Shown here: positions 3,802 to 31,185 of the stretch, in pieces
How the letters are laid out: each line of letters opens with the position of its first letter
How positions within the stretch are numbered: position 1 is the first letter of the stretch
Virus record (IMG/VR): IMGVR_UViG_3300020160_000032
Span: 1 to 31,185 of that record
DNA length: 31,185 bases
Source: a virus
Direction: 5' to 3' (one strand)
Notes under the pieces: generated by a model
What the model saw: the letters and a program-made list of their open reading frames with translations, nothing else
Told to the model about the DNA's origin: nothing
The model's database searches: none
Program-made: the position numbers and the translations under genes

Positions 3802-3990
3802 ATGTTCTCAGTAAGAGATCTGATCGGTGCGTTAGAGGTACGGATGGCTGAAATACGCCTCTCGTTAGCGTTGGGAAACGCTGTCAATATCGAATCCTAC
3901 CAACGCATGGTCGGGCAGTACCAAGGTTTACAAGATACCTTGGACATCATTAACAATATGTTAAAGAAAGAAGAAGAAGATGAGCGATAA
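3802..3990 (+). CDS. Small conserved helical phage protein (62 aa)
   Basis: The product is a single, probably all-helical polypeptide: a segment RDLIGALEVRMAEIRLSLA, then SYQRMVGQYQGLQDTLDIIN and a charged KKEEEDER end. Proteins of this kind recur between portal and scaffold in related environmental phages, without a known role. The start codon is two bases after the previous stop. No good Shine-Dalgarno is visible, so translation is probably coupled to the strongly initiated gene upstream. Its end overlaps the next gene by 11 bases. I infer a small assembly or scaffold-associated helper only from position. Confidence 0.75.
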   Translation: MFSVRDLIGALEVRMAEIRLSLALGNAVNIESYQRMVGQYQGLQDTLDIINNMLKKEEEDER

Positions 3991-4414
3991 CCCGGAAGTG
4001 TTGGAAAACGCTGAAGTTAAGTGGGCATTCCCCGCTGTGAATCCCGGTGCTAAGCCTCTTGGTGGTCGAATTTTGGTGCAATTACGTCGCACAAAGCAGA
4101 AAACGACAAGCGCAGGGATCATTTTGGTCGAAGAGACCAAAGAGACCGAGAAGTGGAACAACATGGTGGCGAAAGTCATTGAGATTGGCCCTCTCGCATT
4201 CAAAAACCGTGAAACCATGCAAGGCTGGCCTGAAGGCTCGTGGTGCGAGGTTGGTGATTACATCCGAGTCCCTAAATGGGGCGGAGATCGATGGGAAGTT
4301 AAGGTTCAAGGACAGGATGATCATGAAGATCCAGCCTTGTTCATGATTCTGAACGACCACGAAGTCATTGCCAAAGTCATTGGTGATCCCCTAGCTATGA
4401 AAGCATTCTTATGA
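3980..4414 (+). CDS. GroES-like co-chaperonin (144 aa)
   Basis: The product has the order of elements of the chaperonin-10 fold: PLGGRILVQL (residues 26-35) as the first strands, then a flexible loop TTSAGIILVEETKET (42-56). SAGIIL there corresponds to the SAGGIVL hydrophobic tripeptide that GroES uses to dock on GroEL. Next come MVAKVIEIGP (62-71), VGDYIRVPKWGG for the later barrel strands, and a closing LNDHEVIAKV. Phage co-chaperonins such as T4 gp31 replace host GroES so that GroEL can fold the capsid protein. The length exceeds the usual 95-110 residues because of short N- and C-terminal extensions and an insert with GQDDHEDP. It starts inside the preceding gene and ends with an ATGA overlap with the scaffold gene, tying it to capsid assembly. 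GroEL binding itself is inferred. Confidence 0.82.
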   Translation: MSDNPEVLENAEVKWAFPAVNPGAKPLGGRILVQLRRTKQKTTSAGIILVEETKETEKWNNMVAKVIEIGPLAFKNRETMQGWPEGSWCEVGDYIRVPKWGGDRWEVKVQGQDDHEDPALFMILNDHEVIAKVIGDPLAMKAFL

Positions 4415-13546: not shown

Positions 13547-16500
13547 ATGGCACAAACAGGATACACACCCATTCAGTTGTACTACAGCACCACAGCGGCG
13601 GCTGTTCCTCTAGCGGCAAACCTTGCGGCTGGTGAATTGGCAATCAACACTGCTGACGGAAAACTTTATTACGAGAACAGTTCTGGTGTTGTGACATTGT
13701 TGGCTTCAGCCGCAGGCGCTTCTGGCGATGTGGTTGGCCCATCTTCCGCAACAGACAATGCTCTAGCACGTTTTGACTTGACCACAGGCAAACTAATTCA
13801 GAACTCTGTTGGCATCTTGAGCGATGCAGGCATTCTGACTGGTTTGACTGGCATCACATCGTCTGGCTCCATCACGTTTTCAAGCCTGACATCTGGTCGC
13901 GTTCCTTACGCATCTACAGGTGGATTGCTGACTGACTCTGCCAATCTAACATTCAACGGCACTACATTAACCGCCAACACCATAGGAGCATTTACTCTTA
14001 GTGGAACAATTGCGGGTGGCGGCAATCAAATCAACAATGTAATTATTGGCACATCTACCCCTTTGGCGGGTTCATTTACTACTTTAACTGCATCCACTTC
14101 TATTACAAACAGTAGCCTGACCACTAGTCGTGTGGTCTACACCACTACAGGTGGCTTGGAAACAACCTCTGCCAACTTGCTGTACTCTGGTACTGACCTG
14201 ACTGTTTATGGTCTGACTGTTGGTCGTGGTGGCGGTGCTTTGTCTACCAATACTGCTATTGGCGCAACTGCATTGGCGGTTAACGTAAGTGGAACGGCAA
14301 ATACCGCAATTGGTGAAAGCTCTTTAGCAAACAGCACTGGCAACAACAACACCTCAGTTGGTCGTTTTGCAATGCAAGCAAACGTAGGCGGAAGCAGTAA
14401 CACCGCCGTCGGCTCTGCCGCGCTTACAGCAAATTTGGCTGGAGATAGTAATGTTGCAATCGGACAGCAAGCGCTTTCAGCAAACACAGCGTCTAACAAC
14501 ACCGCAGTGGGTTACAGGGCAGGCTATACAAACACCTCAGGTACTGGACTTGCCTTTTTTGGCTATTTGGCTGGATATTCTTCAGGAACAGTCAATTCAA
14601 ACTCCGCTTTTGGTGCGTATTCTTTATATACAGCCACGGGTTCGGATAACACGGCAATTGGTAATTCCGCCCTATATTTAACATCTTCTGGCACGTCTAA
14701 TACAGCCGTAGGTACTGCGGCACTTCGCGCCAACACCACAGCATCGGGCAACACCGCCGTGGGCTTTCAAGCTTCATATAGTAATCAGACATCTTCTGGT
14801 ATTACTGCGGTTGGTTATAGAGCGCTGTATACAAACACTACTGCAAACAATACTGCGGTTGGATACCAAGCTTTGTACACAAATGTTGGACAAAGCAATG
14901 TGGCGATGGGTAACAACACGCTTTATGCCAATACCTCTGGCGAATTTAATGTTGGAATAGGTGACTTAGCACTTCGCTTTAACACCACAGCATCAAACAA
15001 CACTGCGGTAGGCTACCAAGCCGCTTACTCAAACACAGGAAACAACAACTATGTAACTGCAATTGGCTATCAAGCACTTTACTCATATAACACCGCAAAT
15101 GGCAATCCAAACATTACGGCTGTTGGTGCTTTAGCGGGATATTCAGCCAACTCAGGAAATTATTTAACTGCTATTGGCGGTTATTCTGGTTATCGGGCCA
15201 CTGGCTCAGACAACACAATGCTGGGCTACTCGGCAGGCTACTATGTTACTTCTGGGGCTGGCAATACCTATCTTGGCGCTGTGTCAGGGCCAAATGTTTC
15301 TGCGTCAACTGGCTCGTTTAATGTTTCTGTTGGCGTTGCCGCACTTCTAAATAACACTTCAGCTAGTAACAACACGGCTGTGGGTTATCAGGCGGGGTAT
15401 AGCGGGACAACATCAGCCAACAACGCTTACCTTGGTATCCGAGCCGCATACTCTACAACCACAAGTTTTGGTTCAAACGTGGCGGTTGGCTACGAGTCGC
15501 TTTACACCAATACAACTGGATATTCAGTCGTTGCTGTTGGTGGTCAGGCTTTATATACCAATAACGGAAACAACAACACTGCTTTAGGTTATCAATCTGG
15601 TTACAGTAATACGAGTGCGTCAAACAACACTTTTTTAGGTTGGTCTGCGGGTTATTACAACCAAACAGGTGCTAATAACGTAGCCGTTGGCTCACAAGCG
15701 TACGCCCAAAGTGGGACGTTGGCTACTGGTAGTAACAACATTGCAGTTGGTGCTAGTTCACTACAGGCAATCCAGACGGGCTCTAACAACATTGCTTTAG
15801 GTACTAACGCCCTCTACTCCAATAACACAGCATCTAACAACATTGCCGTAGGGCATCAAGCTCTTACTTTTAACTCCACAGGCGCAAGCAACACTGCTGT
15901 AGGTTATCAGGCGGGGTTCACCACTGCCACCTCTACTTACAACGTGTTTATTGGGTATCAAGCGGGATACACATCAAATGCGTCCCAAACAAATTGGGGA
16001 AATGTTTGCGTAGGCCCACAGACTGGTTATGCGTTAACTACTGGATACGGAAATACTTTTATAGGTGGTAATTTCCAAAATCCCGCAGGTGGCTCAATGA
16101 CCACTGGCAACAAAAACACTATTCTTGGTGGTTTTGGTGGAGTCGCCTCAGGGATAAGCATTGCCACATCAAGCAACAATGTTGTGCTGTCTGATGGCGA
16201 CGGCAACGTGGCTGTTGCCTATTCAGAATCTGGCTCTGGAAATCCAAACATTGAGAAAAAAGGAAACTTTGCAAGTTCTTATAACATACCAACCGTAGTT
16301 GTTGGAACTGGTGTAAAGGTTGATTGTGTTGAGGCTGTTAACTCTAATTCCAACCAAATCTATGGTTGGATGATGAAGATTTATTTCTCGTTGTACCAAA
16401 ATACTGGCTCTGCAAAAAATTTACGTTTGACTTTTTCAAGGACAAGCACTGCAAGTTTGGCAGGGTTTAGGATGCTGGTTAATGGCGAATATCCTTCAGA

Positions 16501-16750
16501 CTCAATTACGCAATATATTGCGCGACTTGCAACTGCTGGAGGTAGTGGAAACACATACTCGTCAAGTAGCTACGCTACGGGAGATTTGGGGGCTGGCTCT
16601 TGGACAAACCCCGGAGGAACTGCGGACTATTATTGGCAATCGGCAGGCGCTTCTATTTACGACACTGGTGGTATTCAAGGCATTATTGAAATTGTTGCCC
16701 CACTTGAAGCCGTGCAAGCATTTTCATCAATCACAATTAGTTACGCATAA
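13547..16750 (+). CDS. Tail fibre with YadA-head-like repeats (1067 aa)
   Basis: The N-terminal module (TPIQLYYSTTAAAVPLAANL, GELAINTADGKLYYENSSG, residues 5-52) is a widespread fibre attachment start. After a linker of strand repeats, residues 235-841 contain about 36 copies of a roughly 17-residue repeat with core NTAVGYQAL. It is similar in style to the left-handed beta-roll of YadA/Hep_Hag adhesin heads. The last 190 residues (from about 880) lack repeats and are richer in charged and aromatic residues (YGWMMKIYFSLYQ, SKIS-like strands, GGIQGIIEIVAP), a likely receptor-binding tip. AGGAAA lies before the ATG. Codon use within the repeats looks more A/T-rich than in the capsid genes, which may mark separate origin. 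Confidence 0.85.
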   Translation: MAQTGYTPIQLYYSTTAAAVPLAANLAAGELAINTADGKLYYENSSGVVTLLASAAGASGDVVGPSSATDNALARFDLTTGKLIQNSVGILSDAGILTGLTGITSSGSITFSSLTSGRVPYASTGGLLTDSANLTFNGTTLTANTIGAFTLSGTIAGGGNQINNVIIGTSTPLAGSFTTLTASTSITNSSLTTSRVVYTTTGGLETTSANLLYSGTDLTVYGLTVGRGGGALSTNTAIGATALAVNVSGTANTAIGESSLANSTGNNNTSVGRFAMQANVGGSSNTAVGSAALTANLAGDSNVAIGQQALSANTASNNTAVGYRAGYTNTSGTGLAFFGYLAGYSSGTVNSNSAFGAYSLYTATGSDNTAIGNSALYLTSSGTSNTAVGTAALRANTTASGNTAVGFQASYSNQTSSGITAVGYRALYTNTTANNTAVGYQALYTNVGQSNVAMGNNTLYANTSGEFNVGIGDLALRFNTTASNNTAVGYQAAYSNTGNNNYVTAIGYQALYSYNTANGNPNITAVGALAGYSANSGNYLTAIGGYSGYRATGSDNTMLGYSAGYYVTSGAGNTYLGAVSGPNVSASTGSFNVSVGVAALLNNTSASNNTAVGYQAGYSGTTSANNAYLGIRAAYSTTTSFGSNVAVGYESLYTNTTGYSVVAVGGQALYTNNGNNNTALGYQSGYSNTSASNNTFLGWSAGYYNQTGANNVAVGSQAYAQSGTLATGSNNIAVGASSLQAIQTGSNNIALGTNALYSNNTASNNIAVGHQALTFNSTGASNTAVGYQAGFTTATSTYNVFIGYQAGYTSNASQTNWGNVCVGPQTGYALTTGYGNTFIGGNFQNPAGGSMTTGNKNTILGGFGGVASGISIATSSNNVVLSDGDGNVAVAYSESGSGNPNIEKKGNFASSYNIPTVVVGTGVKVDCVEAVNSNSNQIYGWMMKIYFSLYQNTGSAKNLRLTFSRTSTASLAGFRMLVNGEYPSDSITQYIARLATAGGSGNTYSSSSYATGDLGAGSWTNPGGTADYYWQSAGASIYDTGGIQGIIEIVAPLEAVQAFSSITISYA
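14249..16070 (+). repeat. About 36 tandem ~17-residue NTAVG repeats in the fibre gene
   Basis: Units start with N(T/V/I)A(V/I)G and then (Y/x)(Q/x)(A/S)(L/G), separated by 8-11 variable Ser/Thr/Asn residues. Spacing is usually 16-17 codons but reaches 20. The DNA copies differ in many third positions, so the array is old or selected at protein level rather than freshly duplicated. Confidence 0.85.
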
Positions 16751-18687: not shown

Positions 18688-19295
18688 GTGACGAAAAGCC
18701 ATCAGATGTACTAAGTAAGGTGCTGTCCTATGTGGATAGTCCGTTCAAGCTGTTTGCGCTGATCCTTATGGCGGTGTTTGCGTTCTGTGGGTACTTTGTT
18801 TGGCAGAACCAAGAACTGTTGATGGGCGCATACAAAGAGTCCAAGCGAATGCCGAGCATTGTTGAGGACAGAGTAGAGGACGCGGCTTCTCATTTGTTTA
18901 AAACCACCAACGCTACCATTGTTGCCGTGTTTAAAGTTAATCCCATGTTTGGAACCAGAGTGCTGTACCGCGCTTACACCAAAGAAGGTCGAGACAAAGT
19001 TAACGATGGGCTAGATGTAGGTCTGTTTACCCAGAATTCTGCCAACAACGCTGATGTGGTGAAGCTGATGGCTAGTGAGATACCTTGTGGCGAGTACAAG
19101 TCAGCGCAATCCGAGATGGGTTTGTGGTACATCGCCAAAGGGGTTACCTACACTTGCCGAATTAGCATACCGCCTGACCCAAGCAGATTTGTAGGCCAGA
19201 TTACCGTGGGTTGGGATAATGAACCTACCGACATTCAAGTGGCAAGAACCATGATGGAAATTGCAGCCACCATGCTTTCAAGGAGTAAACAGTAA
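18684..19295 (+). CDS. Membrane-anchored protein with GAF-like periplasmic domain (203 aa)
   Basis: A cytoplasmic N-terminus of 20 residues is followed by one membrane helix (LFALILMAVFAFCGYFVW, about 23-40). The remaining 160 residues would then be periplasmic: ATIVAVFKVNPMFGTRVLYR, GLDVGLF, MASEIPCGEY, GVTYTCRISIPPDPSRFVGQ, then ITVGWDNEP and a closing helix QVARTMMEIAATML. The strand-helix order and the final VGQITVGW strand with a long helix recall small GAF-type domains. Two Cys (in EIPCGEY and TYTCRIS) could pair. Similar proteins occur beside the endolysin in environmental phages. A sensor-like or antiholin role is speculative, and the fold is inferred by pattern alone. Confidence 0.75.
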   Translation: MSDEKPSDVLSKVLSYVDSPFKLFALILMAVFAFCGYFVWQNQELLMGAYKESKRMPSIVEDRVEDAASHLFKTTNATIVAVFKVNPMFGTRVLYRAYTKEGRDKVNDGLDVGLFTQNSANNADVVKLMASEIPCGEYKSAQSEMGLWYIAKGVTYTCRISIPPDPSRFVGQITVGWDNEPTDIQVARTMMEIAATMLSRSKQ

Positions 19296-19810
19296 TGGCT
19301 CAGTTTGAACCAGCTTTTGAGCAAATGATCAAGGATGAGGGCGGATATGTCCTCCACGAAGTCCCTGGTGACACAGGAGGGATGACCTACGCAGGGATCG
19401 CTCGTAACAAGAACCCTCAGTGGAATGGTTGGGCGCTTGTGGACAAGAAAGAGTTTGGCGGGTCTTTGACGCCTATGGTGCGTGAGTTCTACCGTGTTGA
19501 GTTCTGGGACAAGATGCGAGGCAATGAGATCACTAACCAGGAAGTAGCCAACACCATCTTTAATTTTGGGGTAAATGCTGGCATGGGCATGGCTGTAAAG
19601 CTAGCTCAATTGATCGTTGGAGCGACTCCTGACGGCGGGATTGGGGCTAAAACCATAGAGAAACTCAACCAAGTTACTGATGGGCAGCGGTTCAAGGAGT
19701 CCTATGCTTTGGCTAAGATTGCCCGTTATGTTGAGATATGCAACAAGAACCCTGTGCAGGTCAAATTCCTCAAGGGCTGGATCAACAGAACATTGAAAGG
19801 TCTAGCATGA
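19295..19810 (+). CDS. Endolysin, GH108 N-acetylmuramidase with peptidoglycan-binding domain (171 aa)
   Basis: The enzyme cuts the glycan backbone of peptidoglycan at the end of infection. The N-terminal glycosyl hydrolase 108 part has the family signature: KDEGGYV with the catalytic Glu at residue 15, followed by DTGGMTYAGIAR (26-37). Then come REFYRVEFWDKMRG and VANTIFNFGVNAGMGMAVKL, leading to TPDGGIGAKTIEKLN of the type-3 peptidoglycan-binding domain. The length is normal for the family. No signal peptide is present, so it depends on a holin. The ATG shares a base with the preceding TAA and has AAGGAGT upstream; the holin gene overlaps its stop. Confidence 0.93.
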   Translation: MAQFEPAFEQMIKDEGGYVLHEVPGDTGGMTYAGIARNKNPQWNGWALVDKKEFGGSLTPMVREFYRVEFWDKMRGNEITNQEVANTIFNFGVNAGMGMAVKLAQLIVGATPDGGIGAKTIEKLNQVTDGQRFKESYALAKIARYVEICNKNPVQVKFLKGWINRTLKGLA

Positions 19811-20244
19811 GCTTGCTTGCCGTTGGATCAATTATTGAAGCCGTGGGTAAGGTTGCAGGCGACCTGATCACCACCGACAAAGAGAAGATGGAGATGGAGA
19901 TTGAGCAAAGAAAGCTAGATCTCGAAGAAAAAAAGATCGACCAAGCTACAGACTTAGCTCAGATTGAGGTTAACAAGATCGAAGCGGCATCCTCTAGCGT
20001 GTTTGTTTCGGGCTGGAGACCTGCCATTGGCTGGATCGGTGTGGCAGCTATGGGTTATCAGTTTTTGGCTTACCCACTGTTTCAGTGGGCATGGAAGTAC
20101 TTGCAGGCTATGGGATGGGTTCCTGTAGGCATGGATCCCCCTCCAGTGCTTGAAGCTGACCAGCTTTGGGTCATCCTGTCAGGTATCTTGGGTATTGCTG
20201 GTATGCGCTCCTTTGAGAAGACCAAGGGTGTGGCTAGCAAGTAA
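19807..20244 (+). CDS. Three-helix holin of the GTA type (145 aa)
   Basis: The ATG at 19807 overlaps the endolysin stop (ATGA). The N-terminal 60 residues contain an amphipathic stretch (LLAVGSIIEAVGKVAGDLI) and a long charged helix (KEKMEMEIEQRKLDLEEKK). The membrane part begins SGWRPAIGWIGVAAMGYQFL (68-87), the hallmark of the GTA_holin_3TM family (PF11351). It continues LAYPLFQWAW, and a last helix LWVILSGILGIAGMRSFEK ends in the family's GxRxxEK motif. It would form lesions that release the endolysin. The order lysin then holin is reversed from the classical cassette but known for this family. A promoter candidate follows in the gap. Confidence 0.9.
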   Translation: MSLLAVGSIIEAVGKVAGDLITTDKEKMEMEIEQRKLDLEEKKIDQATDLAQIEVNKIEAASSSVFVSGWRPAIGWIGVAAMGYQFLAYPLFQWAWKYLQAMGWVPVGMDPPPVLEADQLWVILSGILGIAGMRSFEKTKGVASK

Positions 20245-20302: not shown

Positions 20303-20938
20303 ATGACGACCGCAAGTGTTATGACCTATGACAGTTTGGTCGAAAACATCCAGTCTTATCTGGAGCGTACCGACCCTGCCACAATTGAGAAAATCCCTCT
20401 GTTCATCATGCTTGCTGAGCAGATCATTGCCTCTCAGATCAAGTTTTTGGGCAACATGACCGTGAACACAAGCAACATGGTTATTGGCGAGAATATCATC
20501 GCCAAACCTGCTCGTTGGCACAAAACAGTCTCAGTCAATGTCACAGTCGCAGGAAAGCGTCAGCCAGTCTTTAACCGCAGGTATGAGTACCTTCGTGAAT
20601 ACTGGCCAGACCCCGCAGCAACTGAAGTCCCCAAGTTCTATTGTGACTATGACTACACCCACTGGTTGATCGCCCCCACGCCAGATGATGATTACGCCTT
20701 CGAGGTTTTGTACTACGAGCGAGTGCAACCCCTTGATTCTTCCAACCAGACGAACTGGTTTACGCAGTACGCTCCTCAAGCGCTCCTGTATGGTGCTTTG
20801 TTGCAAGCTATGCCATTCTTGAAGAACTATGACCTAGTTCCTTCCTGGCAAGCTCAGTACAAGCTCATCATGGATACCTTGATGGCTGAAGACAAGTTGC
20901 GTATCGCAGATCGTCAAGCAGTGGCATCAGACTCATGA
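20303..20938 (+). CDS. Head-to-tail adaptor, SU10/T7 gp11-like (211 aa)
   Basis: The product has the typical podovirus adaptor order. Helices come first: YDSLVENIQSYLERTDPATI, KIPLFIMLAEQIIASQIK. A beta part follows (NMVIGENIIAKPARWHKTVS, RRYEYLREYWPDP, PKFYCDYDYTHWLIAPTPDD). A final helical part carries FEVLYYERVQPLD, NWFTQYAPQALLYGALLQAM, then PFLKNYDLV. The PKFYxDYDYxHWxIAPTP and YAPxALLYGALxxAxPFLK segments are strong family markers. It attaches the tail nozzle to the portal ring. It is the first gene after the promoter candidate and overlaps the next gene (ATGA). The other adaptor-like gene, at 9855, may serve as a second ring or neck part. Confidence 0.82.
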   Translation: MTTASVMTYDSLVENIQSYLERTDPATIEKIPLFIMLAEQIIASQIKFLGNMTVNTSNMVIGENIIAKPARWHKTVSVNVTVAGKRQPVFNRRYEYLREYWPDPAATEVPKFYCDYDYTHWLIAPTPDDDYAFEVLYYERVQPLDSSNQTNWFTQYAPQALLYGALLQAMPFLKNYDLVPSWQAQYKLIMDTLMAEDKLRIADRQAVASDS

Positions 20939-22194
20939 GTTACAACAGCCCATTCACAGGTCAGGTCATTCAACCGACCGACGTCTCCTATCGTGCCATT
21001 ACGCTGAGTGCAAACACCCAGTTGCAGTGGCCTATCAACGGTAACGCAACAGATGACTATGCTGCCAGAATTATGCAGGTCACAGCGACCACAGCAGGTC
21101 TGAGCTTGTACATGCCTCCAGCCAACCAAACCTCGGTTGGTAATGACGCGCTGATCCGAAACACTGGTGCGAATACCTTCACAGTCAAAGACTATGCTGG
21201 TACGAACACCATTGTCTCTATTGCCGCAGGTGAGACCAAGTACATCTACGTCACAGCCAACCCTAATGACCAAGGTACTTGGGGGATCATTGCTTTTGGT
21301 GTTGGTACATCATCTGCTGATGCCGCCACCTTAGCTGGTTATGGCTTGGTTGCAAGTGGTACAACCTTGAACCAGAGTCACCCTGTCCTGTCTTTAACAG
21401 CAGGTTACACATTTGCTACTACAGACCGAGCTCAGACCTATGTGTGGGGTGGCGGTACAACTACTGCTACCTTACCTGCTAGCTCTACAGTTGGGAACAA
21501 CTGGTTCACGCTGATTAAAAACAACGGTACTGGAACCTTGACTGTCAACACAACTGGATCTCAGTTGATTGATGATGGCTTAACTAAGACCTTTGCCCCT
21601 AATGAGTCAGCATTCTTGATTTCCACAGGTACTGCCTATGTGACTGTTGGTTATGGAACAAGTACTCAGTTTGAGTTCACAGCTCTAGTCAAGAGCGTGA
21701 CAAGTGGTGCATACACCCTGACAGCTAGTGAAGCATCAAACACCATCCAAACTTACATTGGGACGCTGACAGGTAATGTCACAGTCACTTATCCGCCTGT
21801 GGTTAACTTCTATGTGGTGAGTAACCAGTGTACGGCTGGTGGTTATACGTTGACCTTGACAACAGGTGTATCTGGTGGTGCGACTGCTACGATCCCTGCT
21901 GGCGGTCAGGCTACGCTGATCTGCGATGGTACGAACTTCTTGAACGCCAACACAGCTTTGGCTGGTGGTGTGTCGCTTTCGCTGATCAATGGTACGGCTG
22001 GTACGCCTTCACTGAACTTCTCTTCGGAGACCAACACAGGTATCTATCGCCCTGGTGCGGGTCGCTTTGGCATCACTGTCCTTGGTAATCAGATTGTTGA
22101 TGTGGATGCTACTGGCGCACAGGTCACAGGTGCTATTGACTCAACAGGTGTGGGTACATTTGTGGGTGGCGTAAGAGGCGGAACGTTCTCATGA
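20935..22194 (+). CDS. Fibre-like structural protein (419 aa)
   Basis: The product is beta-rich with few charged residues. It starts [30 protein letters not shown], then shows repeated blocks where a [30 protein letters not shown] unit occurs about three times (near residues 55-110, 170-230 and 245-320). These resemble the repeat of phage side-fibre or tail-spike shaft proteins. The C-terminus reads [32 protein letters not shown] and closes GGVRGGTFS. That ending is close to the SGGTF end of the fibre at 11274-13535. It is linked by ATGA overlaps to the adaptor and the tail hub, so it is probably made in fixed ratio with them. Confidence 0.8.
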
Positions 22195-25100
22195 CAAAAA
22201 AGGTCTTTGCGCTTGATACGAAGCCGGGCATCCAGCGCGATGGCACGGTCTTCGACAAAGACTTCTACAACGACGGCAGATGGGTCAGGTTTCAGCGTGG
22301 TCGCCCTCGCAAGATCGGTGGCTACCGCGAGATCACCGCAGCCTTAGCTGGCATCTCTCGGGGCATCTTTGTTGACTCTGAGAATGGTTTTTCCAAGATC
22401 TTCAATGGTTACCGCGATGGTCTCCAAGTTCTTGAGATCAACAATAGCGGTATCGGTGCTGGTATCACTAACTTTGTGATCTCATCACCCCTAAACACTT
22501 TGGGTACGATTACCGCTGGTTCTCAGTACACCAATGGCTCGTACACAGCCATTCCTTTAACTGGTGGAAGTGGATCAGGTGCGACAGCCAACATTACTGT
22601 AGCGTCTAATGGTGTGACCGCCGTCACTATTGTCAATGATGGAAATGGTTACTTGGTTGGTGACTCTCTGTCAGCAGCCGCGGCTTCGATTGGTAATGGA
22701 GTCAACACCTATTCAACGATCACAGGTGGAACTTTGTACACCAATGGGACATATTTGAATGTTCCCATGATCAATGCAACCTCTACACCTGTTGGAACTG
22801 GATCAGGAGCTACTGCAAATATTACTGTCTCTGGTGGTGCAGTCACTGGTATCACAGCCCAAGACCGTGGTGTTGGTTACAAAGACACAGATGTTTTGAC
22901 TGCAAACCCTGCCTTTATTGGTGGTGTTTCTGGGATTATTGACACCTATGGACAACTTGTAGGTGGATCTTTGTACACACCAGGAACTTACACAGGTGTA
23001 AGCTTTACAGGCGGATCAGGTACAAGTGCCGTAGGTACTGTTGTTGTTACAACAAACACGATCACCGCTGTCACTAGCATCATTGGTGGCTCTAACTACA
23101 CAAACGGATCTTTTCCTAATGTCGCCCTAACAGGCGGTGCTGGAACTGGTGCTTTGGCTACTGTCACAACCTCTGGCGGAAATGTTGTTGCTGTGGTTAT
23201 TACTTATGGCGGCAACAACTATGCAGCCAATGATGTGCTATCTTGCTCAGCTTCTAGTATCGGTAAAGGTGTAACAGCCTTTGGAGCGATCACAGGGGGT
23301 TCTGGCTATGTGAATGGCATCTACCCTAATGTGACCCTCACAGGAGGCACAGGAAGCGGTGCTAGAGCCACCATAACCGTCTCTGGCGGGATAGTTATAT
23401 CTGTGACCCTCACTTATGGTGGAGTCGGTTATACCGCCTCTGATAGCCTCACAACCGCCAACACGAACCTTGGCGGCACTGGCTCTAGTTTCGCTGTTGT
23501 AGCCTCTACAGTAGCCGCTAGTTCTGGCTTCCAATGCTCGGTTTTCTCTGTTTCAACAGGATCTGTGGGTTCTGTTACCTTGACCAATGATGGATCAGGC
23601 TATGCCGCGGGCAATGTTCTGACAGCCGCAAGTGAAGACATTGGCGGTGTCAATGGTGTGATCGGTGCTATTGGTGGGATCACCACTGGTAACTACTACA
23701 CCAACTCCACAACAGGATATGTGACTGCATCCATCTCGGGAACTGTAATGACAGTGACTGCTGTCAGCTCTGGTGCTTTGGTTGTTGGCCAGACTGTCTT
23801 TGGAACTAGCGTCACAGCAAACACCACAATCACATCTTTTGGTACTGGTTCTGGCGGAGTCGGTACTTACAACGTCAACACAAGCCAAACCGTAGCTAGC
23901 ACAAGCATTTCATGTATTGGTGTGTTCCGTGATACACCTCTAACTGGTGGCTCAGGAACAGGCGCAACTGCAAATATCATCATTCTGAATAGCCGAATCT
24001 ACTCAGTTGAGATCGTCAATCCTGGTGTGAACTATGCTGTTGGTGACACCTTGAGTGCGACATTCTCAGGTTCTACAAATGGTATTGCCACGATCTCTGC
24101 TGTGACCGGAGGTTCTAACTACACCAATGGAACTTATACAGCAGTTCCCTTGACAGGCGGTACAGGTTCAGGCGCACAAGCAACAATTGTGGTTGCTGGT
24201 AACACCGTGACCTCTGTAACCGTGACATCCGCAGGAACAGGATATACAGTAGCTGATGCCATGAGTGCATCTTCTGCCTTGCTAGGTAATGGCATCAATG
24301 CTCTGAACACAGGTTCTTTGGTTGGCGGTACTAACTATGGCCCAGGAACATATTCCAATGTTCCTTTAACTGGCGGTACAGGATCTAATGCTCAAGCAAC
24401 AATTGTTGTTGGAGCTGGCGGTGATGTGACCTCTGTGACTTTGTCTGCTCGAGGCATCAACTACACCGCTGCTGACTCACTAAGTGCCGCGGCATCTAAT
24501 CTTGGTGGTGTCACCAATGGTGTGGGTACTTTAGGTGCAGTTACTGGTGGATCTAACTATACCAATGGAACTTTTACGAATGTCCCCTTAACTGGTGGAG
24601 CAGGTACAGGTGCTCAGGCAACGATTGTTGTCTCAGGTAATGCTGTGACCTCTGTGACCATCACATCAAAGGGAAACAACTATGTTGTTGCCAACACTCT
24701 GTCAGCTTCTGCAACCAACATTGGTAATGGTATCCAGACCTTGGGGACTTTAACTGGTGGTGGTGCTTACACAGCTAATGGTATCTTGACCACAAACACC
24801 CTTGTGGGCGGTACTTTGTACACCAACGGTACATACACAGGCGTGTTTTTGACAGGTGGAACAGGTTCTGGTGCAGTGGCAACCATTGTCGTAGCTGGCA
24901 ACACAGTGACCACCGTTACCTTGACCGAGACAGGTTCAGGTTACACCGTAGCAGATACCTTGTCAGCCAATGCTGTTGACATCGGTGGTACAGGTTCTGG
25001 CTTCTCAGTCAAAGTAGCTACAGTTGGTGCGGCAACATTTACCAATGTGTCTCTCACTGGCGGTTCAGGCACAGGGGCTAAAGCAACTATTGTCGTAGGA

Positions 25101-27023
25101 ACTGCTGGTGCGGTTACTTCTGTCACCCTGACTGACCGTGGCCGTGGCTACATCTTGAGCAACATCATGTCAGCCAACTCCACAAGTATCGGTGGAACTG
25201 GTTCAGGCTTTGTTGTTCCTGTCTCTGCGATCTATGCAAGCACAGGGTTCTCAGTCCCTGTCTCTACAGTTGTTACAAGCTCAGGCTTCACTATCCCTGT
25301 CTCCACGGTCTATGCAAGTTCAGGTTTAGCCTTTACTGTTGCTAGCTTAGGCAGCGCAGGAGGCTTCTCAGTTCCTGTGACCTATGTGAAGTCTAGCAAT
25401 GGGTTTCAGTTCAGCGTATTTACAGTTACACAAAGCTCTGGCTTCCAAGTGGAAGTAGGGACTGTTTATGCGAGCTCAGGCTTCTCAGTCCTAGTAACTA
25501 GCGTTGATCCGCAATTTATCTACAATGACAACAACCTTTGGCAGTTTGATGCTTTGTATGACACTCAGGGTGGGAATAACCTACTCCTAGCACACCCAGG
25601 GCAGAACCTGACCGAGATTGACAGCACTGTGAATACTCCAGTTCTGTTTGGAAACATCGCAGGAAGCGTTGTCTCTCCCCTCAAGGACACAGGCGGAGCT
25701 CTTCCTACTGGTGACATCATTGATGTCTCTGGCGGTGTGGTCTCCCTTCACCCCTATGTGGTGGTCTATGGGAACAATGGTCTCCTAAAGAACTGCTCAG
25801 CAGGTGATCCTACTGATTGGAACTCTGCGGATGCCAATGAGGTCAACGTAGCGACTGGAAAGATCGTCAAGGGCTTACCCGTCAGGGGCGGTTCAAACTC
25901 GCCTTCAGGACTGTTTTGGAGTCTTGATAGCCTAGTTCGTATGTCCTACATCGGTGGTGTGGGAACTCCTCCCCAATATTGGCGCTATGACATCATCTCT
26001 AGCCAAACTTCTATCCTCTCGTCTCAGTGCGTCATTGAGTACGACGGTATCTACTACTGGATCGGTGTTGATCGCTTCCTCTTGTACAACGGTGTTGTGA
26101 AAGAGATTCCTAACAACATGAACCAGAACTTCTTCTTTGACAACCTGAACTACTCTCAGCGTCAAAAAGTATGGGCAACCAAAGTCCCTCGCTATGGTGA
26201 GGTGTGGTGGTACTACCCCCGTGGTGACTCAGAAGAGTGCAATGATGCAATCATCTACAACACTAGGGAAAACACTTGGTATGACGCAGGAACTGCTTTA
26301 GGAGCTAGGCGCTCTGCTGGTTACTTCTCTCAGGTTTTCCGCTTCCCTATTGCTGCTGGTGCAGATGTAAACCTTATTGGTGCAATCAATCAAATCTCAA
26401 TTACAAATGCTGGCTCTGGTTATACAAACGGAACCTACCGCTTTATCAATTTGACAGGTGGATCAGGATCAGGAGCGACCGCAACAATTGTGGTGGCAGG
26501 TGGAATCATTACATCTGTAGCACTTGAGAACTTTGGTCAAAACTATGTCATTGGTGACACTCTGTCAGCCTCTATTCCCGCTGGTATTAACTTTGTTTTG
26601 ACAGTCAATCAGGTCAATAGTGAAGTTTCCTTGTGGCAACACGAGGTAGGAACAGATGCAGTTAGGGGTACAAGTGCTGTGGCAATTGAGTCATACTTTG
26701 AGACCAATGACTTAGGTTGGGTCTCTGGTGGCCCATCTCAACCAGCTCCAGTAGGCGAGAACAAGTGGATTCACCTTGACCGGATTGAGCCTGACTTTAT
26801 CCAGAGCGGGACTATGTATGTCCAAGTGACTGGCCGCCCATTTGCTCAGGCAGATGATGAAACCTCTTCTCCTAGAGCATTTGAGCCAGGAACACACAAG
26901 GTCGATGTTCGTGAGCAACGCCGCGAGATGCGCCTAAAGTTTGGAAGTAACATCGCAGGGGGAGACTACCAACTCGGTAAGGTCATCCTTGATGCTGACT
27001 TTGGAGATGTGCGTGGATACTAA
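22191..27023 (+). CDS. Tail hub/nozzle protein with giant repeat insertion (1610 aa)
   Basis: Residues 1-102 ([40 protein letters not shown]) and 1106-1610 ([90 protein letters not shown]) make up a protein of about 600 residues. It matches a family found after the adaptor in environmental podoviruses, which I infer to be the tail nozzle, analogous to T7 gp12 or P22 gp10. Between the two halves lie about 1000 residues of tandem Gly/Thr/Val repeats. One more repeat copy is at about 1396-1476. The family lacks such an insert as I know it, so this gene looks expanded. ATGA overlap links it to the preceding gene. Confidence 0.8.
22498..25505 (+). repeat. Repeat array inserted in the tail-hub gene
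   Basis: About eleven units of 65-75 residues follow one pattern: GG(S/T)xYTNGTYxxVPLTGG, then (S/T)GSGAxATIxV, a V(T/A)xVT strand, GxGYxxxDxLSA and xxIGxG. Some units are cut short (near 22960-23085). One holds an unrelated block at about 23699-23914 ([42 protein letters not shown]), a repeat known from other phage proteins. DNA copies are diverged, with short identical tracts. Confidence 0.85.
25194..25505 (+). repeat. Eight exact-length 13-residue repeats at the end of the array
   Basis: Eight units of exactly 39 bases fit 312 bases with no gap. The protein pattern is xxSxGFxVPVSTV, for example [13 protein letters not shown] and [13 protein letters not shown]. Single or double copies of the same 13-mer ([26 protein letters not shown]) end earlier units of the large array. 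Confidence 0.85.
26376..26618 (+). repeat. Isolated copy of the large repeat near the hub C-terminus
   Basis: Residues from about 1396 read [20 protein letters not shown], then [30 protein letters not shown] and VIGDTLSAS. They match the array unit but are 870 bases away from its end, between two segments of the conserved hub body. Confidence 0.8.
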
Positions 27024-27277: not shown

Positions 27278-30200
27278 ATGGCATTCAGACTTGATCGCAA
27301 TCCAAATTTCAAAATGGATTTTGAAGACAACGGAGGGTTTGAGACCTCTGGTGATGACTTCTACTTTGGAGGCCCTGACACCTCTGTTGGAGTAGATAAT
27401 GGCGGTGGTGGTGGGTTGGATGTCTTAACTCCTGTAACACCTACAGCCCCTGATACAACCCCTGACACTAGTACTGTCACCACTGGTGGCGGTCTGGATG
27501 TTCTGACTCCAGTTACACCTTCAAATCCAGTTACTACAACTACAGTTACTGATGCATCCGATGGTGGTTTGGATGCTCTGACACCAACCACAGTAACTCC
27601 ATCACCAACCGTCAAAGATACTGTTGAGACCCGCGGTGGGTTGGATGTTTTTACGCCTAAAACGCTTAGTTCAGTTACAACTGATTTTGAAGATGTCATT
27701 GCACCCCCAGGCGGTGAAACTAAGTCTGCTACCGTTACACCTACAACCCCAGCAAAACTCTCAGATTCAGGGATCATTCAACTGTTGTTGGACAACCCAG
27801 GAGCGAGCGATCTCACCATTGCTGGTTTGATGGATGCAAATGGGTTAACTCCTGCGGATATTGCGCGTGTGACTGGCGTTGATTTAGCAACCATCACTAA
27901 CCGATACAACACCGCAAAGAACCCTGTTACAACTGTTACCCCTACAGTAGTACCTACCCCTACCCCTACCCCTACACCAACTCCTACTGCACTTCCAACG
28001 CCTACTCCGACACCTATAGCTACTCCTACACCAACACCAACAAACACAACCAAGTGGCGTGAATTCACGCTAGACAATGCGGTGGTTGATAAGTTGGCTG
28101 AACAAATTACAGCCCAGCAAAAAGCTGGTACGGCTAAGTACTATCAAGGTCAAGGTCTAGGTTCTATTGAAGCCAACACTCGTGAGATGGCAAATATCTT
28201 GGCTAGTGTTGGTGTGACTGACATCAAAGACTTTGGCAAGGTTCCTCTACTTGAGCAGGCTATAGGTCAACTAGGCTTTAATGGGCAGATTGCAAGACAA
28301 GATGAGGATGGAAACTACTTCATCATGACGCCTTCAGGCGAGTATGACAGTGATGGCAATCAGATTGCTAACAGAGTTAATGTTGATCCATCAAAGCTCA
28401 CTAATGTCTATGGAACTTTGGATGGAGATGGTAACTTTGTTCTTGCTGATCAATCCAAAGTAGTCACCAAAGATGGTGTGCCGATGGTGCAGATTGGCGA
28501 GACTTTTGGAAACAAGACAACAGGTCAAGCTGTTCCTAATACATATAGCGAGCGTCAAACAGGTAATGCTTTCGGTGGAACATTTGAAGGTAGTGGAAAT
28601 ACTGGTTTCCGTGTGCAGTTTGATGCAATGGGTAATCCAATCTTCTACACAACCAAAGCCTCGTCCAATGACCTAGCTAACATCTTGGCGGACTTAGGCC
28701 CCCTTGGGCAGATCGCCATAGCTGTAGCCACTGGTGGAATGTCCCTGCCTATGCAGATTGGTACTCAGTTTGCCATCAATGTTTTGAGCGGTGGAGATAT
28801 TGGCACAGCCATCAAGAATGCTGTAGCCACCTATGCTGGCGGTCAGATCTTGTCCAATAGCATGATTGGTGACATCACTAAACAACTTAATGGTATTGAT
28901 GCCTCTGGGATGCTTGCAAAGGCTTTCCAAGGCTCTGTGGTAGGTGCTACCAAGGGCTTTATCACTGGTCAAGACGTGTTGGCTTCAGCAAAGACTGGTT
29001 TTATTCAGGGAGGAACTGGTGGTGCGGTTGATGCTGTGATGGGTCAGTTTGGAGATCAGCTAAGCGGTTTATCTAAGACTCAAAGAGATGCACTCAAGAC
29101 TAGCTTGACTGGACTGATTACTGGTAAGCCATTGGATCAAGTTCTGATGGACACCATTATCAGCACTGCTACCAATGAGATTAAAGCCAACAAAACCGCC
29201 AACGACGCAACCAAAGTCAAGCTTGCTGAGTCTGGTGTTGGAACTAAAGAGTCTGATGCTATTACCTTGTCTGGTTTAGATGAAAAAGACATGGAGTACC
29301 TGACAAAAGGTACAAAACCTGATCTTGAAACAGCTCGTGCTTTGGTTGCCATTGGTATCAATCCAGAGACAGGTAAATTCATAACTGACTTAGAGGGTGG
29401 TGAGAGTGAGACTGTAGCCGGTCCTGGTGGACTGCCAAAGAAAACCACACAAGTCCAATATGATGCAAATGGCAAGCCTTCCACAATCTCTTTTGTAGAC
29501 ATCAATGGTGTAACTCAGAACTTGCCAGTAGCTTTGGATAAGCAAGGCAACATGACCTATGTAGAGAATGGCAAGACTGTTTCTCTAGTGACAGATGCTA
29601 AGGGTCAACCAATCACAATGCCTTTTGTTGATGACAATGGCAAGCTCACACAACTCAATGTCAAACAAGATCCCGTAACTGGCAAGATCTATTTTGACTT
29701 GAATGGTCAGCCAACTATTGTTCCTCCTGATCAGATGATCAGCGTGTTAGCCCGTAAGTTTCCTGACCAGTTCTTGAAGGCTTCTGACGAGTTCTATGGC
29801 GGTATTGGAAAAGAAGCAACAGACCTCAATGCCAAACTGCAAGAGGTATTGCAACGTGAAGGCTTGATGCCTAGTGCTACACCTGTTGATACGATTACTG
29901 AACCTAAAAAAGTCAATAGCTTTAGTGACTTTATTGACAACTTGAAGAAAATCAACCCTGCCGCTGCCAAGTCAGCTGCAACTGGTGATTTTACTGATAT
30001 GGCTGGAATTGTTGAGGCGGCAAAAACAGATCCGTCTCTTAAATCTCTTGTTGACTGGTGGAAAACAAAAGCAGACACGCCTTTTGTGGACATGATCTCG
30101 GACGAGTTGGCTAAAGATGTGACAGGAACAGATCCTGCATTTGATGCTTTGCGTGAAGAGTACAAGAAGAAGACTGGTTCTGACTATGTTGTCAAAATGC

Positions 30201-31185
30201 CAGAGTCAGTGCCAACAAGTTCTGTAAAAATAGATATTGGTGACGGACAGTTTGCTTATTACGATAAAGCAACCAATACAGTTTATGGGCTTGATGGTAA
30301 GGTGCGAGATGACGTTGTTGTGATGACAGGGGATCGTCCTAAGCCAACACCAACACCAGGGTCTGGTGTGATTTACATTGATCCAAACAGTATTAAGTTG
30401 CCTACACCCAAGCCAACTGAAACTGTTCCTACGTCGTTGCCAACCCCAACGCCTACACCTACTCCAACCCCGACTCCTACACCAACACCAACACCAACAG
30501 CGGAGCCAACTCCTACGCCTAGCGTAACTCCAACTCCCACGCCTACCCCTACCCCTACGCCTACACCGACGCCTACACCCACACCTACGCCAGAACCAAC
30601 ACCGAGCGTAACTCCTACACCCACACCTGAGCCGACTCCAAGCGTAACTCCGACACCGAGTGTGACGCCCACACCAACTCCGAGTGTGACACCTACCCCA
30701 AGCGTGACCCCTACGCCAAGTGTTACCCCTGAGCCGACTCCGACTCCAAGTGTGACCCCTACACCAACTCCGACGCCCACACCGACGCCTACTCCAAGTC
30801 CCACTCCAAGTGTGACTCCTGAACCTACGCCCACCCCCAGCGTAACACCTACACCTACGCCAAGTGTGACTCCCACACCTACTCCCACACCTACTCCGAC
30901 TCCAACACCTACTCCGACTCCTACGCCTACGCCTAGCCCGACTCCAACTCCGACTCCGACTCCGACTCCGACTCCGACTCCTACACCAAGTCCTACGCCT
31001 GAGCCAACCCCAACCCCTGTTGTCACACCGACACCAGTGGTAACGCCTACACCTGTGGTTACCCCAACTCCTGTGGTTACCCCCACACCTGTGGTGACAC
31101 CTACGCCTCCAGTCACACCAACACCACCAGTTGTTCCTACCCCTACCCCAACACCTACCCCTACCCCAACACCTACACCTACACC
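27278..31185 (+). CDS. Very large virion-type protein with Thr-Pro repeats, 3' end missing (>1300 aa)
   Basis: The frame from ATG 27278 stays open to the window edge (1302 codons). Residues 1-45 are acidic ([20 protein letters not shown]). Four GGLDVLTP motifs follow (45-127), then a small helical part ([39 protein letters not shown]). A first Thr-Pro run lies at about 223-257. A long mixed domain follows with [20 protein letters not shown], and a Gly/Ala-rich hydrophobic stretch ([20 protein letters not shown], about 479-545) like those in internal ejection-type proteins of environmental podoviruses. Next come [13 protein letters not shown]-type strands, helices around 880-960, and a second Thr-Pro run reaching the end. 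I infer an internal virion or ejection protein; no enzyme motif is visible. Direct coupling to the previous gene is likely. Confidence 0.82.
27410..27658 (+). repeat. Four GGLDVLTP repeats at the N-terminus of the large protein
   Basis: The protein motif GG(L)D(V/A)(L/F)TP occurs four times, 22-26 residues apart, with Thr/Pro-rich linkers. The first two copies ([12 protein letters not shown]) are identical over 12 residues. Confidence 0.8.
27945..28048 (+). repeat. First Thr-Pro run
   Basis: The sequence is a run of CCTAC/ACTCC-type triplet pairs encoding TPTP with a few Ala, Leu and Ile interruptions, about 34 residues. It joins two folded parts of the large protein. Confidence 0.85.
30397..31185 (+). 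repeat. Long Thr-Pro run, open at the window edge
   Basis: About 260 codons are almost only Thr and Pro, with higher-order units [17 protein letters not shown] and PTPPV. Third positions vary freely between A, C, G and T, so the protein pattern is kept while the DNA drifts. The array continues past 31185. Confidence 0.88.

Follow-up and report, generated by a model that had tools for sequence, protein, structure and literature searches.

A ~1000-residue repeat array inserted in the tail nozzle protein of an environmental phage

Results

The array-bearing gene lies in the tail block of the window

The window analysed here is a stretch of 31,185 nucleotides (IMG/VR virus record IMGVR_UViG_3300020160_000032, positions 1 to 31,185). 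At 22191–27023 it carries a gene for a 1610-residue protein, identified as a tail nozzle (hub) protein from its open reading frame (ORF), its match to PHROG 3287 and its matches to nozzles in the PDB. This gene, its subdivisions described below and the two genes before it all lie on the + strand. The tail adaptor gene is located two genes upstream (20303–20938; PF24175 SU10_adaptor, E = 6.8e-22). Between adaptor and nozzle, 20935–22194 encodes a 419-residue protein with weak matches to tail-fibre PHROGs, which is likely a short tail fibre occupying the position of gp16 in Escherichia phage SU10. A gene for ~400–430 residues was found at the same place in array-bearing and array-free relatives, and fibre-like neighbour genes are retained with and without the array.

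Several other features of the window were recorded. At 19295–20244, just before the adaptor gene and inside the tail block, a gene for an endolysin (PHROG 315) overlaps one for a holin (PHROG 3427). Directly downstream of the nozzle gene, an ORF of at least 1302 codons (27278–31183) remains open at the 3′ end of the window; the corresponding ORF of relatives encodes from 249 to over 2400 residues. Its long Pro-Thr-rich repeats (30440–31182; periods of 6, 18, 24 and 36 bp) likely form the flexible stalk of a fibre or needle-like protein. A 1067-residue repetitive virion protein is encoded at 13547–16750; tail-spike PHROG 4636 was matched by eight of its stretches and PHROG 6002 by seven. A gene for a GroES-like co-chaperonin (3980–4414; PHROG 3188, E = 2.8e-11) is found shortly downstream of the portal gene. 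Evidence for the host is weak: binning grouped related contigs with genomes of Limnohabitans and other betaproteobacteria, and Caulobacter is the host of cultured relatives at a greater distance.

The protein is a nozzle of the P22 gp10, Pa223 and SU10 gp17 family

The protein matched PHROG 3287 with an E-value of 2.5e-28, and SU10 gp17 belongs to the same PHROG (E = 8e-116). Against the PDB, the hub core matched chain 9nwi_Y of the phage Pa223 tail (E = 1.5e-11) and the VP1 nozzle (8zkm and 8zkk, ~1e-8). Folds were compared using the predicted structure of an array-free homologue (L024), a model of moderate quality (pLDDT 63) that displays the platform and seven-bladed β-propeller of nozzles. 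It aligned with solved nozzles over ~420–450 residues, with Z scores of 19.1 to Pa223 and 18.1 to VP1; scores were about 16 to P22 gp10 and SU10, and 15.4 to the crAss001 muzzle. These results show that the array-bearing gene encodes a short-tailed phage nozzle of the family that includes P22 gp10, Pa223 and SU10 gp17.

Twelve units, a nested domain and mini-repeats make up the insert

The N-terminal flank (residues 1–102; 22191–22496) comprises the start of the platform and the first propeller blades. It aligned with the nozzles of phages 7-11, PaP3 and SU10, and in homologues devoid of the insert it runs on into the C-terminal flank without a break. The insert follows at a position termed site A, in the loop between blades 2 and 3 (residues 103–1105; 22497–25505), a placement derived from the closest homologues in which the site is empty (19/80) and from a two-step alignment. 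An HMM built from nine copies of the ~70-residue unit detected 12 copies at residues 105–1007, the domain E-values of which mostly range from 1e-26 to 1e-32. No other ORF of the window scored above noise with this HMM, indicating that the array is not a chance resemblance. The earlier note on this DNA had recognised a repeat array inserted in a tail-hub protein, and both elements are borne out, the array by the HMM copies and the hub by nozzle matches in sequence and predicted fold. Two details required correction: the units number 12 in the array rather than about eleven, and the insert begins in frame at 22497, not 22498.

Units 1–5 occupy residues 105–434 (22503–23492), units 6–7 residues 433–634 (23487–24092) and units 8–12 residues 636–1007 (24096–25211), the last group being modelled with a pLDDT of 80–85 per unit. 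Eight units are full-length; unit 3 is reduced to model positions 2–42, and the first ~11 positions are missing from units 6, 7 and 12. Unit 7 is interrupted by an unrelated domain of ~80 residues (~495–575; 23673–23915; PHROG 21413, E = 7e-12), for which the pLDDT of the model is low. Among array carriers the length of this nested domain differs, with ~160 residues in L018–L022 as against ~85 in the others. The array ends with about seven ‘SSGF’ mini-repeats of ~13 residues (residues ~1008–1105; 25212–25505), visible in the DNA as a 39-bp tandem period (TRF, 25218–25324), which look like reiterations of the last strand or exit linker of the unit.

Beyond the insert, the first part of the hub core (C1, propeller; residues 1106–1390; 25506–26360) includes the match to solved nozzles at residues 1205–1364. 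A thirteenth unit, identified by the same HMM at a second position, site C (residues 1404–1464; 26400–26582), separates C1 from C2 (residues 1465–1610; 26583–27020), which aligned with nozzle C termini and by analogy would form the velcro strand and the C-terminal platform. With the thirteenth unit discounted, the hub itself is nearer 530–550 residues than the ~600 first estimated. Four relatives (L014, L016, L045 and L048) have no counterpart of the site-C unit. In SU10 gp17, blade 1 bears a loop with three tryptophans at which the short tail fibre docks (PMC9509320). Site C is probably in the region of this loop: it fell near SU10 Trp839–857 in several alignment settings and elsewhere in others, and it holds a repeat unit and no Trp loop.

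The array occupies the loop that carries the SU10 nozzle domains

In SU10 gp17, four Ig-like nozzle domains are inserted between propeller blades 2 and 3 (PMC9509320). Comparison with insert-free relatives mapped the SU10 insert to residues 99–107 of the Salmonella phage 7-11 nozzle. The empty site A of L024 (residues 97–100) mapped to 7-11 residues 99–108 in all three alignments of insert-free nozzles. Since both positions converge on 7-11 residues ~99–108, the SU10 insert and site A occupy the same loop. Loop equivalence rests on this two-step mapping (SU10 to 7-11, L024 to 7-11), which proved robust. A one-step alignment of SU10 with an array-free hub was set aside; it gave the same loop in one setting, with boundaries that shifted from setting to setting.

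Arrays of graded length occur at site A among relatives

In the main comparison set, the 80 closest IMG/VR relatives, site-A classes were counted by hand from tables. No unit was present in 19, one unit in 22, two to three (about 2.5) in 17 and 11–12 in the remaining 22, whose long arrays measure roughly 912–1110 residues. Residues 1–98 run directly into residue ~1109 in the 19 homologues with an empty site, confirming that the flanks belong to one continuous family. As the earlier note had anticipated, most relatives lack the array or have far fewer units and copy number varies (0, 1, 2.5 or 11–12), so that the homologues do not all share an array of one length. The pattern was unchanged in a wider set of 161 loci, the more distant relatives being devoid of the array.

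On a tree of the flanks, the distribution of site-A states needs nine changes; for the commonest states, branches with support make at least seven of them unavoidable. Small gains and losses of units at site A are thus frequent. One example is the pair L049 and L060, whose hub DNA is 91% identical over 1833 bp and differs at site A by one clean in-frame unit of 252 bp, present in L049 and absent from L060. All long arrays fall in a single clade (SH-aLRT 91), suggesting that the long array probably arose once, with clade support that falls short of conclusive. Within this clade copy number varies by about one unit only: unit order is common to L001–L022, and one unit is missing in L007 and L009–L012. 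Placement of the array-free L039 inside the long-array clade, obtained with FastTree at a support of 0.3, was rejected because a better model places it outside.

Three loops of the hub vary. Besides site A, these are site C (residues ~1390–1465) and site B, located within C1, and the latter two vary independently. Between its motifs, site B is mostly about 55 or 110 residues long and is expanded to ~200 residues in L142 and ~375 in L138. Lengths of ~57 and ~145 residues, initially considered as site-A inserts, were discarded since they partly correspond to site B.

The array is under strong purifying selection

We estimated dN/dS between the window and L004, the pair with the least saturated dS (0.4–1.25). 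Values were 0.06–0.07 in array units, compared with 0.04–0.09 in the hub flanks; the fastest-evolving piece of the hub was the site-C unit. Units at the same position are ~50–70% identical between deeply split carriers, whereas units at different positions within one protein share 40–45% on average. The array is an ancient feature kept under constraint, and not a surface in rapid change. A possible recombination of unit 5 between the window and L014 (96% identity, versus 58–79% elsewhere) was rejected, as DNA identity there is only ~71%, which points to conservation at the protein level and not to exchange.

The unit recurs in other virion proteins

AlphaFold2 predicted each unit as a small β domain, mostly with a pLDDT of 70–85, in a whole-array model of pTM 0.33. 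A Pfam search of the units gave no family above threshold, lectin-like and adhesin families included, while Big_2 was recovered from SU10 at E = 1.6e-22. The array gave no profile match to SU10, and nothing was found when the PDB was searched by sequence with the array profile. Searches with the array model returned no convincing solved fold (best Foldseek E-value 1.5; VIA Z scores of at most 3.8, to EF-Tu barrels); such weak or missing structure matches do not demonstrate a new fold.

The unit, or one similar to it, was found in families of fibre, baseplate and other virion proteins (PHROG 5342, 438, 708 and 4406), and units of the same kind were recognised in cyanophage virion proteins from their predicted structures. 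A tblastn search of phages with the array matched S-WAM2 alone, probably because low-complexity filtering hides repeats. No further units were found in the other ORFs of the relatives' loci that were fetched.

Discussion

A 3-kb in-frame array of 12 related units occupies the blade 2/3 loop of a phage nozzle and is as constrained as the hub that carries it. What the array does can be approached through SU10, whose nozzle domains straighten during infection and contribute to a 28-nm lengthening of the tail (PMC9509320). We lean, with modest confidence and by analogy, towards the array being the SU10 nozzle-domain design on a much larger scale: a structural extension of the tail which possibly rearranges during DNA delivery. 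If the nozzle is a hexamer placed beneath the adaptor, six arrays would leave the propeller, on its outer or distal face as the SU10 nozzle domains do. In the virion they would be packed around the tail or beneath it; upon contact with the host they may extend or rearrange, lengthening the channel or giving it a brace against the envelope. The single units of the other loop would serve as docking or contact knobs. A more speculative and rather doubtful extension of this proposal is that the nozzle is extendable and its length depends on how many units the blade 2/3 loop contains, in which case 0, 1, 2.5 and 11–12 units would constitute a tunable ruler with which related phages fit their delivery channel to the thickness of the host envelope or capsule.

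The earlier note had instead suggested host contact evolving within a core tail part, through fibre-like projections or a surface coat. In this alternative, each of the six arrays would be a flexible projection that adheres to the host by binding a receptor or surface glycans. Their location at the tail tip, the presence of the unit in tail-fibre and baseplate families (PHROG 5342, 438 and 708) and in cyanophage structural proteins, the variation of copy number across the family and the rapid evolution of the site-C unit would all suit such arms. However, dN/dS is as low in the array as in the hub core, unit order is fixed in 22 contigs, neighbouring fibre-like genes are there whether or not an array is present, and no lectin-like or adhesin family was matched above threshold. 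Strong purifying selection and unit-by-unit conservation are more readily explained by an extended nozzle with a structural role than by a receptor surface that evolves fast, and we regard adhesive arms as possible though unlikely.

Passive decoration of the virion is less probable still. Units would then be sticky or stabilising domains of marine and freshwater virions, accommodated in any tolerant loop with little specific function; their occurrence at two loops in varying combinations, the variable length of a third loop, gains and losses between close relatives and the spread of the unit over many unrelated virion proteins are what this would produce. Yet a 3-kb array maintained in frame, with a dN/dS of ~0.06 and a unit layout shared by 22 contigs despite their deep divergence, argues for a specific, selected role. 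Mis-assembly, to which repeats are prone, or gene decay can be dismissed given the open frame, the same layout in 22 IMG/VR contigs and purifying selection throughout.

We found no published description of such a nozzle array in the open-access literature, so that the earlier view of the feature as undescribed stands for this particular array. As regards its kind, the statement was too strong, because large nozzle insertions in the same loop are known from SU10 gp17 (PMC9509320) and crAss001 gp44 (PMC10172136). In SU10, domains placed in a single loop have been shown to make the nozzle an extending tube. Here, a large environmental phage group has placed an unrelated domain in the same loop, in a graded series reaching ~1000 residues per subunit. 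This natural dose series, which includes a 91%-identical pair one unit apart, offers a test of what such insertions do.

Among known systems, the closest is gp17 of SU10 (Kuravirus; PDB 7z47 and 7z4f), which shares PHROG 3287, the adaptor family and the blade 2/3 insertion loop; the order adaptor, ~420-residue protein, nozzle also parallels the adaptor, short fibre and nozzle of the SU10 tail set, with extra genes in between in SU10. In relatives such as Salmonella phage 7-11 the loop is empty. The SU10 insert consists of four Big_2 domains (~420 residues), in contrast to the 12 unrelated units (~1000 residues) found here, and the nested foreign domain, the mini-repeats and the unit in a second loop set the present nozzle further apart. 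Since the unit is not Big_2, the behaviour of the SU10 domains cannot simply be transferred to it. Nozzles of P22 (gp10), Pa223 and VP1 (PDB 8eap, 9nwi and 8zkk) have the fold in common with the present hub, and those of Pa223 and VP1 detectable sequence homology as well, but their chains of 471–521 residues are too short to hold the array; the PaP3-type relatives that were aligned likewise have no insert at site A. The units themselves have their counterparts in cyanophage and other marine phage proteins (PHROG 5342, 4406, 438 and 6005; P-SSM3, ACG-2014e and S-WAM2), where a similar ~70-residue unit often forms arrays; unlike the nozzle loop described here, these carriers are mostly baseplate, fibre or unnamed structural proteins. 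Finally, the muzzle gp44 of crAss001 (PDB 7qok and 7qol) is a T7-nozzle-like propeller at the tail tip with very large insertions, resembling the present hub by predicted fold, and has a domain inserted between blades 2 and 3 (PMC10172136). Compared by description, its inserts are two Ig-like domains and a unique ‘crass’ fold, not a tandem array. That different domains are found between blades 2 and 3 in such nozzles suggests that this loop is a general insertion point in podovirus nozzles.
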